Assembly (NCBI RefSeq): GCF_024345395.1 | Contig: NZ_JAGQBA010000001.1 | Location: 310,001 to 374,000 of the forward strand | Source: Cyanobium sp. Tous-M-B4 | GTDB lineage: Bacteria > Cyanobacteriota > Cyanobacteriia > PCC-6307 > Cyanobiaceae | DNA length: 64,000 nt | Direction of reading: 5' to 3' | Shown here: one piece after another, positions 10,578 to 38,901 of the stretch | How the letters are laid out: each line of letters starts with the position of its first letter | Numbering within the stretch: the stretch's first letter is position 1 | Notes under the pieces: model-generated | Database searches by the model: none | Told to the model about the DNA's origin: nothing | Seen by the model: the letters and a program-made list of their open reading frames with translations, nothing else | Translations under genes and position numbers: made by a program

Positions 10578-11078
10578 GTGAGCCTCGCCATCGCTCTGCT
10601 CACGGTGTCGGACACGCGCACACTTGCTGAGGACTGCAGCGGTGATGCCCTCCAGCAGCGCCTTGAGGCTGCCGGCCACCGGCTGGTGGGGCGCCTGCTG
10701 GTGCCAGACGACCGCTACCAGATCCGCTCTGAAGTGAGCCGCTGGATTGCCGATGCAGGCGTGCAGGTTGTGATCAGCAGTGGCGGCACCGGGCTCACCG
10801 GCCGCGATGGCACCCCGGAGGCGGTGGCGCCCCTGCTCGATAAGACGATCGATGGTTTTGGTGAGTTGTTTCGGGTGCTCTCCTTTGAATCGATCGGCAC
10901 CAGCAGCTTGCAGAGCCGTTGCCTGGCGGGGGTGGCTAATGGCACCGTGATTTTTGTGCTGCCGGGTTCCCTCGATGCGGTGCAGACAGCCTGGGATCGG
11001 CTGATTGCTGCCCAGCTCAATGCCGATACCCGCCCTTGCAATCTGGTGCAGCTGCTGCCGCGGTTGCGGGAGGTATGA
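10578..11078 (+). CDS. moaB: molybdopterin adenylyltransferase family protein (MoaB/MogA)
   Basis: MoaB/MogA-family protein that adenylylates molybdopterin before metal insertion by MoeA. It has 166 residues, starting with GTG (SLAIALLTVSDTRTL). The nucleotide- and pterin-binding motifs are LTVSDTR near the N-terminus and VVISSGGTGLTGRDGT in the middle, followed by FRVLSFESIGTSSLQSR and GTVIFVLPGS. MoaB and MogA cannot be separated by eye; with moaA, moaC, moaD, moaE and moeA all nearby, it probably supplies the adenylylation step. It is divergent from moaD with 89 bases between. Confidence 0.93.
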   Translation: MSLAIALLTVSDTRTLAEDCSGDALQQRLEAAGHRLVGRLLVPDDRYQIRSEVSRWIADAGVQVVISSGGTGLTGRDGTPEAVAPLLDKTIDGFGELFRVLSFESIGTSSLQSRCLAGVANGTVIFVLPGSLDAVQTAWDRLIAAQLNADTRPCNLVQLLPRLREV

Positions 11079-11117
11079 GTCTTGGCCTTAAGTGTCTGAC
11101 AAGACGGGTGTTTTTAC
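11079..11117 (+). terminator. possible weak hairpin terminator after moaB
   Basis: GTCTTG at 11079-11084 pairs with CAAGAC at 11100-11105, and a run of five T follows at 11110-11114. The 15-base loop and short stem make this a weak candidate that would separate moaB from the Nif11-like gene. Confidence 0.3.
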
Positions 11118-11175
11118 TCACCTCTGAACTGAATCAGACTTCTTAGCCTGGGTACAGATAGTTGAGGAAAGTGAG

Positions 11176-11391
11176 ATGACTACCTGCCAAACCCAATCCA
11201 CCGTTGCTCTGCACGATCTCAAAGAGCTGGCCCGGCGCGATCCTGCATTCACTGCCGCTCTACTGGCTACTCGGTCGACCCAGGAGGCCGTCAAGTTGGC
11301 AGCCGCTAACCACATCTCCGTCACTCCCGAAGCGCTATGGCGCCATCGGGGCACCTTGATGGCTGGAGGTATGCCCACTTGGCGAGGCTGA
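11176..11391 (+). CDS. Nif11-like small peptide ending in Gly-Gly plus six residues
   Basis: Small protein of 71 residues. The helical part (ALHDLKELARRDPAFTAALL, then QEAVKLAAANHISVTPEALW) follows the Nif11 leader pattern: a helix, a DPAF/L turn, a second helix with vkLA and vTpEal. The C-terminus reads TLMAGGMPTWRG, so a Gly-Gly at residues 64-65 is followed by only six residues. In RiPP precursors a double glycine after a Nif11 leader marks the leader/core border, but a six-residue core without Cys would be unusual, and PTWRG could equally be part of a non-processed Nif11 protein. GAGGA lies 7 bases before the ATG. It is convergent with moaA. I saw no modification enzyme nearby. Confidence 0.7.
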   Translation: MTTCQTQSTVALHDLKELARRDPAFTAALLATRSTQEAVKLAAANHISVTPEALWRHRGTLMAGGMPTWRG

Positions 11392-11409: not shown

Positions 11410-12456
11410 TCAGCCCCCTAGGTAAGCCATCTCGGCGTGTGCGCTGTTGGCAGATTTTGCAGTGTTTCGCTCTTCGCTATAGCGGTCGCTTCGTTGATTC
11501 CAGAGGCTGGCCATGGCTAACTCGAGTTTTGCGGCGCCTGACTCCTCCTGCAGCCATGGTTTGAGATCCAAGCCGCTGCCCGGGGCGGCAAAAAGGCAGG
11601 AGTACGCGACGCCATCTGCGGTAACCCGCAGACGGTTGCAGTCGCCGCAGAAAGGTGCACTCACCGATGCCACCACCGCCAGGCTTCCGCCTCCATCCCG
11701 GTAGCGCCAGCGGCTCGCGGTGCCGTGGGCGGTGCGACCCAGCGGCTCAAGCGGCCAGCTGCCGCCGATTTGCTCCAGCATTTCGGCGGCACTCAGCACC
11801 GCCTCGGACTGCCAGCCGTTGCGGCTGCCCACGTCCATGAACTCGATCAGCCGCAGCTCCAGTCCCCGCTTCCTTGCCAGAGCCGCTAGGGGCAGCACCT
11901 GATCATCGTTGGCGCCCCGCTGAATCACAGCGTTGAGCTTGAGGGCGCCGCGGGCGGGATCAAAGCCGGCGGCGCGGGCGTGCTCGATCGCCGCCAGCAC
12001 CGCCGCCAAGGCCCGCTCGCCAGCGGCGGCATCTGGCAGGCCAGCCATGTGGGCAACCGACCCAGCCGTGGTGCCATCGAGGCTGAGGGTGATCCGGTCG
12101 AGGCCGGCGGCGTGTAGCTGCTGGGCTCGCTCAGCGCTTAGCAGCAGGCCATTGCTGGTGAGGGCGATCTCGCGTAGGCCGGGACGCTCCGGGTGTGTGG
12201 CGCGCAGGGGCTGCACGGCGGCGATCAGTTCTTCCAGGCCGCCGTGCAGGAGGGGTTCGCCGCCGGTCAGCCGCAGGCTCCGGGCTCCCAGGCTCACCGC
12301 CGCCCCGATCACCTGCAGCCGCTGCTCCAGCGTGAGTAGGCCGGGTGGCTCCACCCCATCCGGCAAGCAGTAAGGGCAGGCCAGGTTGCAGCGGGCCGTG
12401 AGCGACAGCCGCAGCACCCCCAGGGGCCGGTTGAGCTGGTCGGTGGCACTGGCCAT
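11410..12456 (-). CDS. moaA: GTP 3',8-cyclase (radical SAM)
   Basis: MoaA rearranges GTP in the first step of molybdenum cofactor synthesis. The product has 348 residues. The radical SAM cluster motif is Cys23-x3-Cys27-x2-Cys30 (CNLACPYC); the second 4Fe-4S site is Cys270, Cys273 and Cys287 (CGDCNRLRVTADG...SC). The C-terminal Gly-Gly needed for GTP handling is present (AYLGG). TGGEPLLHGG is the SAM-binding loop. I chose the ATG at 12456; the frame stays open upstream across the divergent nucleotidyltransferase gene, but that extension looks like non-coding shadow. Confidence 0.95.
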   Translation of the reverse strand: MASATDQLNRPLGVLRLSLTARCNLACPYCLPDGVEPPGLLTLEQRLQVIGAAVSLGARSLRLTGGEPLLHGGLEELIAAVQPLRATHPERPGLREIALTSNGLLLSAERAQQLHAAGLDRITLSLDGTTAGSVAHMAGLPDAAAGERALAAVLAAIEHARAAGFDPARGALKLNAVIQRGANDDQVLPLAALARKRGLELRLIEFMDVGSRNGWQSEAVLSAAEMLEQIGGSWPLEPLGRTAHGTASRWRYRDGGGSLAVVASVSAPFCGDCNRLRVTADGVAYSCLFAAPGSGLDLKPWLQEESGAAKLELAMASLWNQRSDRYSEERNTAKSANSAHAEMAYLGG

Positions 12457-12505
12457 GGCGATCACGCTATGGCGGGCAACAGGTCGACGGGGGTAGCGTT
12501 TCAGC

Positions 12506-12925
12506 ATGGACGCCTCCGCTGCCGAGCGTTTCACGCCGCCCACCATCCCCTGGCGCCATCCCCTGGCGCTGGAGCCGGCTCCTGAGCTGGGTCCGGGGGT
12601 GGATCCCCAGAGGTCTGGGGAAGCCTTGGCGCGTCTGTGCGCCGAACCCGATGTGCAGGCGGTGATCGCGTTTGGTTCCCGGGCCAGGGGTGAGGCACGG
12701 CCCGACTCAGATCTGGATCTAGCGGTGATCGTGGGCCAGCCCCAGCTCACGCCGGCCGAAAAGATGGCTTGCTGGAAGCGTTTCAACCGAGCGCTGGGTC
12801 GGCAGGGAGTGGCTGTCGACCTAGTGGTGGCGGGCAGCTCTGATGCCGAGCGCCTGAGTGGCTCCCGTTGGCATGTGTTCGGTGATGTGGCTCGTGAGGG
12901 TCGGGTGCTGTATGTCGCCCGCTGA
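12506..12925 (+). CDS. MNT-type nucleotidyltransferase (putative antitoxin partner)
   Basis: Minimal nucleotidyltransferase of 139 residues. The family signature runs FGSRARGEARPDSDLDLAVI, giving Gly57-Ser58 and the metal-binding Asp69-x-Asp71; a third acidic residue lies in AVDLVV. About 40 N-terminal residues precede the usual domain. In many prokaryotes such proteins pair with HEPN proteins, and in MntA/HepT systems the nucleotidyltransferase modifies and silences the HEPN ribonuclease. Here the HEPN gene follows with a 14-base overlap, so the two are surely co-expressed. Whether this pair acts as a toxin-antitoxin module is an inference. Confidence 0.85.
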   Translation: MDASAAERFTPPTIPWRHPLALEPAPELGPGVDPQRSGEALARLCAEPDVQAVIAFGSRARGEARPDSDLDLAVIVGQPQLTPAEKMACWKRFNRALGRQGVAVDLVVAGSSDAERLSGSRWHVFGDVAREGRVLYVAR

Positions 12926-13295
12926 AGACGCCTTGCTGCTCCTGGCGATTGTGCGCCGCCATGTGCGCAGCCTGGGGCTGACCCTTGACCTTGCCTATCC
13001 CGACGAAGACTGGGGCTTCACCGCCCAGCAGGCGGTGGAGAAACTGCTCAAAGCCTGGATTGTGCTGGCTGATCGCCAGCCGCCCCGGGTCCATGACCTC
13101 GAAGATTTGGTTGCTCTGGCTGGTCAGCAGCTTGATCCCCTTCTGCTTGAGCTGCAGGTGTTTGCGGTGGAGGCCCGCTATGAGGAGGGACCCTTCCCGC
13201 TGCCGGCACCGCGGCAGGAGCTGCTGGCACTGGTCGAGGCGGAGCTGGAGCGGTGCGAGCGCATGGTGGCGGCGCTGGGCGAATCGGCCAACTGA
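12912..13295 (+). CDS. HEPN-domain protein (putative toxin partner)
   Basis: HEPN-domain protein of 127 residues. The all-helical family pattern is seen in WGFTAQQAVEKLLKAWIVL followed by RQPPRVHDLEDLVAL, where Arg55-x5-His61 fits the RX4-6H ribonuclease motif. The Tyr that follows in the RX4HXY form targeted by MntA is replaced (His-Asp-Leu), so regulation by AMPylation at that site looks unlikely. It overlaps the nucleotidyltransferase by 14 bases and is convergent with mobA, inside the Moco block. It may be an active toxin, a substrate-binding partner for the nucleotidyltransferase, or a domesticated pair. Confidence 0.82.
   Translation: MSPAEDALLLLAIVRRHVRSLGLTLDLAYPDEDWGFTAQQAVEKLLKAWIVLADRQPPRVHDLEDLVALAGQQLDPLLLELQVFAVEARYEEGPFPLPAPRQELLALVEAELERCERMVAALGESAN

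Positions 13296-37180: not shown

Positions 37181-38901
<1,721 letters not shown>

Follow-up and report, generated by a model that had tools for sequence, protein, structure and literature searches.

The best-known Nif11 proteins are precursors of RiPPs, and the family is commonly filed under that heading. In the N11P precursors (TIGR03798), as described in parts of Haft et al. 2010 (PMC2887384), family-wide similarity stops at a Gly-Gly, a variable core follows, and the motif ELSDEELEAVAGG (from Table 3 of that paper) precedes the cleavage site. The Nif11 peptides of group F, according to the section on them in Arias-Orozco et al. 2023 (PMC10783134), have instead a conserved C-terminus, GEYH/N, and their function is unknown. 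In a field study, a Nif11 domain-like transcript was among the abundant Synechococcus transcripts that were raised on iron addition (PMC9723758; the passage concerned does not specify the Nif11 gene).

Here we describe a small cyanobacterial protein that is related to Nif11 and ends in PTWRG. The string TWRG is absent from the main text of PMC10783134, and within the literature that we searched, we found no text with PTWRG and no paper that joins Nif11, cyanobacteria, and NtcA.

The PTWRG gene and its family

We analyzed a stretch of 64,000 nucleotides from Cyanobium sp. Tous-M-B4 (the window). It contains an ATG-initiated ORF that encodes a protein of 71 amino acids, MTTCQTQSTVALHDLKELARRDPAFTAALLATRSTQEAVKLAAANHISVTPEALWRHRGTLMAGGMPTWRG (Table 1). 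The initial annotation of this ORF, which was made from the sequence without database searches, was accurate about its anatomy. The protein ends in ...ALWRHRGTLMAGGMPTWRG*, that is, Gly64-Gly65 and then just MPTWRG. The gene has its own ribosome-binding site, whose GAGG ends 8 nt before the ATG (in L050, the seventh close relative, the site is GGAG, as compared to GAGG in the other six). And the gene lies between moaB (10578-11078, + strand) and moaA (about 11410-12480, opposite strand).

Table 1. Features of the PTWRG gene and of its upstream region (positions in the window)
Feature	Position	Strand	Evidence
71-aa orphan Nif11-type protein, PTWRG family	11176..11391	+	71-member alignment; dN/dS 0.07-0.27
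Ribosome-binding site GAGG	11164..11167	+	Sequence; conserved in 6/7 close relatives
Conserved promoter element GTGTTTTTACTCAC (family consensus GTRnTWnnRCYYAY)	11108..11121	+	Pattern at -60 to -68 in 26/71
Putative -10 hexamer TAGCCT, exactly 22 bp past the element	11144..11149	+	Spacing of 22 and TAnnnT in 26/71; function presumed
Nif11-like helical domain, residues 12-59, ending LWRHRG	11209..11352	+	hhalign 92%, E 6.6e-7; AlphaFold2, four helices
C-terminal tail TLMAGGMPTWRG, whose final five residues (PTWRG) hardly vary	11353..11388	+	PTWRG end in 61/71; W invariant

Because codon usage by itself does not show that the ORF is coding (score -0.8, which is neutral), the case for a real gene rests on conservation. 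In a search of 60 genomes (including its own), seven congeners gave full-length homologues (86-94% identity), and other genomes gave more distant ones. The dN/dS ratios between the gene and seven close relatives indicate strong purifying selection. A profile search found matches with E <= 0.001 in 81 of 400 genomes from the taxonomic family, from 16 of its 59 genera, and 67 of the 81 were strong, which disposes of the suggestion that this might be a spurious ORF with no homologues at all. In a class-wide draw of 388 genomes, all 10 with a match at E <= 1e-6 fall in the same taxonomic family. The named records with close homologues are those of Cyanobium usitatum Tous, Synechococcus sp. CS-1330 and CS-1331, and two MAGs. 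Judging from sequence conservation, this is a genuine gene for a conserved small cyanobacterial protein.

We used an alignment of 71 family members. Weak, partial, or broken copies (L059-L062, L141, L142, and L143) are not in it; two of these, L142 and L143, were within the E threshold and had to be removed by hand. L134 was left out because our script found no start codon, and we adjusted the starts of L123 and L125 manually. In a tree of the family, the window's group (8 rows) comes together with support of 100/99.

The relationship to Nif11 is clear with the whole family and weak from the window's sequence alone. The window protein by itself matches Pfam's Nif11 family (PF07862) with E = 0.068 and 13.9 bits, which is under the cut-off of 23.8, so the label of "Nif11-like" was right but weak when given to a single sequence. 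Across the family, 50 of the 71 members match Nif11 at E <= 0.1 (the best at 1.6e-6), and when we compared the family to 11 Nif11-type proteins with hhalign, residues 12-59 aligned at the significance given in Table 1. By profile comparison, the PTWRG family is a divergent branch of Nif11.

In an AlphaFold2 model of the protein (built on 6 close sequences, with a mean pLDDT of 75 and a pTM of 0.59), helices span residues 3-21, 23-31, 35-44, and 51-62. The model's pLDDT is under 50 for residues 67-71, which are probably free. A fold search of the model against the PDB matched no solved fold (best E 3.4), and the best match in a sequence search of the PDB with the family profile was a designed protein (E 0.2).

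The most striking feature of the family is its C-terminus. The alignment shows the Nif11-type domain, then a short fixed tail that ends GxPTWRG. The ten members that do not end in PTWRG (the family sequences are all different) have PTWPG (4) or else KTWRG, LTWRG, PAWRG, PSWRG, PTWRA, or PTWSA (one each). Three residues never vary (W69, R58, and G59). G65 is conserved in 70 members, P67 and T68 in 69 each, and the first glycine of the pair in 52. The Gly-Gly pair is present in 51 members (our script's pattern detected 50 and overlooked one, which ends in PSWRG) and absent from 20, including a group that ends RNRG(R/K)(H/N)GLP(T/A)WR(G/A). We also looked for other proteins in the genome that end in PTWRG. 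There are three matches at the DNA level: one is the family gene itself, and in another, the frame is open for just 14 codons ahead of the stop. The remaining match (C8) contains an AGC codon and so reads PTWSG.

Genomic neighbors, the promoter element, and nitrate assimilation

Given its location, the protein might be dedicated to nitrate assimilation or to the synthesis of Moco, and the gene might have been placed in this block for that reason; a role in nitrogen metabolism was among the initial suggestions. Using NCBIfam, the window's neighboring genes include moaC and moaB (above the cut-offs), while the products of the others have MoaE, MoaD, MoaA, and MobA as their best matches, under the cut-offs. 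In the window and in six congeners (L044-L049), the PTWRG gene is flanked by moaB and moaA; two of these congeners (L046 and L048) have further sequence in between. (In L048, from G015, another Nif11-type ORF follows moaB and lies just upstream of the PTWRG gene; it scores 42.8 bits with TIGR03798, which is above the cut-off.) In two further congeners, the gene is near cobA (L051 and L052). Furthermore, narB is present in 57 of 67 family-positive genomes, versus 152 of 333 others (P = 1.2e-9, Fisher exact test, uncorrected for genome size or kinship). These 67 are what remains of the 81 genomes with E <= 0.001 once the 14 whose matches are weak or partial are set aside.

Nevertheless, we consider a dedicated nitrate or Moco role to be unlikely. 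A moaA-type neighbor was found for just 6 of the 71 copies that we fetched. At the threshold that we applied, narB is missing from 10 of the 67 positive genomes (G007, G009, G011, G014, G105, G256, G308, G347, G366, and G383), and four of these (G007, G011, G014, and G308) are 99-100% complete. G007, G011, and G014 have no moaB match either. For example, G011 (99% complete) keeps the PTWRG gene, and neither narB nor moaB was found there. No moa gene was detected around the PTWRG gene of G011 (locus L050), and a short stretch upstream aligns with the 3' end of moaB, as if the PTWRG gene had outlived the moa block. G013, a congener that has narB but has no family match at E <= 0.001, has moaB and moaA just 118 nt apart. 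Because the gap in G013 exists without the gene, and because positive genomes without narB or moaB keep the gene, the location among Moco genes is no clue to its role. As for the association with narB, genome reduction may be the explanation, since many of the genomes that are listed as lacking a match in both searches have a size of just 1.3-1.9 Mb.

Six other genomes that lack the gene here (G174, G232, G024, G002, G101, and G200) have different sequence between moaB and moaA, with a gap of 262 to 1334 nt. The convergent gap ranges from 118 to 1334 nt across relatives (L154, L155, L156, L157, L160, L162, and L164), and its content differs, as though this were a landing site that tolerates insertions.

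Away from moaB and moaA, the gene's neighbors differ between lineages. We annotated 30 neighboring ORFs from 14 loci: 25 match varied Pfam families, and 5 match none. Some copies are near DJ-1/PfpI, glyoxalase, and GGDEF proteins, or near PhoX and a cupin, or near rRNA adenine dimethylase and a GHMP kinase; others are near DUF4912, Coq4, a Na/H exchanger, RPE65, DnaJ, and so on. So, of the two comparisons across homologues that had been proposed, the C-termini proved to be fixed and the neighbors proved to be variable. Judging from these comparisons, the gene's place among the nitrate genes appears to be a local accident.

We noticed two other features of the window. At 12506-13295 (+ strand) there are two adjacent small ORFs, which we take to resemble a nucleotidyltransferase and its HEPN-type partner; similar proteins, at 35-39% identity, are encoded in L056. 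And 38460-38746 (+ strand) matches Rfam's 5_ureB_sRNA (125.6 bits). This is the window's only Rfam match at the gathering threshold, so no riboswitch or sRNA was found at the PTWRG gene by this approach. Folding of the gene's 5' and 3' flanks gave nothing beyond what was seen for shuffled sequences (z of -0.46 and 0.32).

When we aligned the upstream regions of family members, we found the same block in two unrelated contexts. We summarized it as GTRnTWnnRCYYAY, then 22 bp, then TAnnnT, at the distance given in Table 1; this pattern was derived from the same sequences on which it was counted. In 1.42 Mb of fetched loci (both strands), the full pattern has 25 matches, and the same number precede the gene there; the window's is the 26th. 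The core alone has 36 matches in the fetched loci, and 26 of those are before a PTWRG gene (the window is counted apart). A looser pattern is found for 28 of the 71 members. (Sites in L123 and L125 may have escaped these counts, which used the uncorrected starts of both.) Within the window, a related pattern, with up to two mismatches allowed, has a single match, which is at the PTWRG gene; 0.05 were expected. For the 26 of 71 members that have the full pattern, the comparison shows that this promoter-like element stays with the gene while the neighbors change. The pattern is absent from all 20 copies of a second clade, which is discussed below.

The element is not shared with seven neighboring nitrate and Moco genes, which also argues against a role specific to them. 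We did not find it within 260 nt upstream of narB, nirA, nrtA, moaC, moaB, moaA, or moaE/D (the starts of nirA and nrtA are estimates). Overall, the gene's position and its co-occurrence with narB fit the suggested role in nitrogen metabolism, but the persistence of the gene in G011 and the lack of its element at these seven nitrate and Moco genes do not. We also considered a wider regulon: the core GTRTTTNYACTYAY has three matches in the genome, versus one for a reversed control, and the other two lie inside longer open frames, so we rejected this idea.

The geometry of the putative promoter is familiar. Promoters that are activated by NtcA have GTAN8TAC centered at around -41.5 (as summarized in a portion of PMC3898017). 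Similarly, the PTWRG gene has a 14-bp element whose ends are GT...A(C/T), followed by 22 bp and TAnnnT, which is the same arrangement. The element differs in having GTG/GTA...CAC/CAT and a conserved center, instead of GTA...TAC. The strict site GTAN8TAC occurs twice in the window, at 1389 and 42317, and neither is at the PTWRG gene; since these matches lie elsewhere, the nitrate genes do not have a strict site either. With 4 matches to CRP-type helix-turn-helix proteins (3 of them above the cut-off), the genome offers several candidates for the activator of the element.

Leader tests, maturation enzymes, and gene copies

If the protein were a precursor of the N11P type, then conservation should end at Gly-Gly and a variable core, rich in Cys, Gly, or Ser, should follow. 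We found otherwise. PTWRG is kept in more members than Gly-Gly is, and because G65, P67, T68, and W69 are kept more than the first glycine is, conservation rises beyond Gly-Gly, whereas it would fall if a leader were followed by a variable core. None of the 71 members has the motif ELSDEELEAVAGG or L[ST]..EL..GG before the cleavage site, and none has a cysteine in its last six residues. At E <= 10, the PTWRG protein matches no NCBIfam family, and hence not the N11P model TIGR03798. It had been proposed that homologues that all share PTWRG without Gly-Gly would speak against a leader: this holds in part, for 20 of the 71 members, and the other 51 do have Gly-Gly. With its fixed end, the lack of the leader motif, and the loss of Gly-Gly in those 20, the family supports the other reading in the initial annotation, a Nif11 protein with a non-RiPP role.

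Potential processing enzymes are not consistently present. Among 56 near-complete family-positive genomes, 36 have a match to the C39 peptidase family (there is one in the window's genome) and 20 have none, while 20 have a SPASM match and 36 have none, including the window's genome. (C39 and SPASM are the classes of processing enzymes that this genome-wide search covered.) There is no maturase or peptide exporter among the 30 annotated neighbors. The adjacent radical SAM gene was a candidate for a maturase, but its best match in NCBIfam is MoaA, over its full length (273.8 bits, as compared to a cut-off of 284.05), so we rejected it. The lack of a neighboring enzyme is not conclusive, given that a RiPP maturase may be encoded elsewhere and act in trans.

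This leaves room for a different kind of precursor, one with a constant core. A distant maturase would recognize the Nif11 part and modify the fixed PTWRG end (its Trp and Arg). There are precedents for invariant cores: PQQ and mycofactocin are peptide-derived cofactors whose core residues are not known to vary. The family's relationship to Nif11, a tail that is probably free (in the AlphaFold2 model), the invariant Trp in a short C-terminal segment, and the TIGR03798-like gene that adjoins the PTWRG gene in part of one clade (see below) would all fit. However, neither Gly-Gly nor the leader motif is kept, no maturase was seen among the neighbors, and both SPASM and C39 are missing from many of the positive genomes, so we think a constant-core precursor is rather improbable. 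Slightly more doubtful is the further proposal that the invariant Trp and Arg are modified in trans to give the same cofactor-like small product in all of these picocyanobacteria. If this were true, the product would be a cofactor-like molecule rather than a variable antibiotic.

The adjoining gene is found in the second clade. In 10 of its 20 copies, the PTWRG gene is just downstream of a small Nif11 gene that ends in PGEYN, or of pieces of one; where the end of that gene could be aligned, the spacing is 56-57 nt. The window's genome also encodes a protein of this type (L001), which scores 58 bits with TIGR03798 (the cut-off is 32.3). The PGEYN gene aligns over its full length in L087, L092, L054, L098, and one copy from L093 (61-83% identity to L001). 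In L088, L089, L091, and the other two copies from L093, only pieces of it align (the contig of L091 begins close by). By these alignments, the PGEYN gene looks decayed in half of those copies; the PTWRG ORF is open in all ten. More broadly, the window's genome (G000) has 12 places that score above Pfam's cut-off for Nif11, several of them with other tails.

Some aspects of the family might suggest a selfish or semi-mobile cassette with no role in the cell. The distribution is patchy, the neighbors change, and several genomes contain further copies that are broken or partial, which implies that loss of the gene is tolerated. G128 (L093) has three copies within about 12 kb, and the closest pair shares the region from -128 to +294 (about 420 bp) at 95% identity. 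(The three copies share blocks of about 420-520 bp at 89-95% identity, a local duplication of a compact unit.) But selection on the protein is strong and its end is conserved, our searches of phages, plasmids, and viral contigs found no relatives, and under general annotation, none of the 30 neighbors is a mobility gene, so we consider a selfish cassette to be very unlikely.

Finally, the minimal peptide signal of the initial annotation, with a leader cut at Gly-Gly to secrete MPTWRG, is hardly credible: a Gly-Gly does precede the short tail of the window protein, and its genome does have one match to C39 peptidases, but 20 homologues keep the tail without Gly-Gly, all 71 lack the motif before it, and C39 is absent from 20 of the 56 positive genomes.

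Proposed role and comparison to known Nif11 proteins

We give about even chances to the following reading: a stand-alone, unprocessed protein that descends from Nif11, with the PTWRG tail as its working end, which is probably a regulatory adaptor, and whose site between moaB and moaA is specific to one lineage. Under this proposal, an activator of the CRP/NtcA class would bind the element at around -41, and the protein would be made. Its Nif11-type domain would fold as a small helical bundle, and the protein would not be cleaved. The LWRxRG and PTWRG segments would dock onto a conserved cellular partner, and judging from this anatomy, the protein may act as a regulatory adaptor or inhibitor. 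The gene's position in the window would be particular to its lineage; in relatives, this convergent gap contains different sequence.

Because the PTWRG branch fails the tests for a leader, it is a clean case for asking what non-leader Nif11 proteins do. With a nearly invariant tail of five residues and a single promoter element, a non-leader role is directly testable.

How does the PTWRG family compare to the two most similar known groups of Nif11 proteins? It resembles the N11P precursors, as portrayed in the portions of Haft et al. 2010 that describe them (PMC2887384), in being cyanobacterial, in its Nif11-type domain of about 50 residues, in having Gly-Gly near the end of most members, and in that one genome can contain several Nif11 genes. 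Unlike those precursors, it lacks a motif like ELSDEELEAVAGG, and its conservation runs to the end of the protein. Its C-terminus is fixed, short, and free of cysteine, and no transporter or maturase was seen beside the gene.

As far as the section on group F in PMC10783134 describes those peptides, the PTWRG protein is like them in being a small Nif11 protein with a conserved, rather than variable, C-terminus. The gene ending in ...PGEYN, which immediately precedes the PTWRG gene in some members of the second clade, has the look of group F. The PTWRG protein differs from that group in its tail (PTWRG instead of PGEYN), and L001 scores above the cut-off for TIGR03798, while the PTWRG protein does not. 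A small Nif11-type protein with a fixed C-terminus was already known, in the GEYH/N group, and the PTWRG family forms a branch of its own that differs in both its tail and its promoter.
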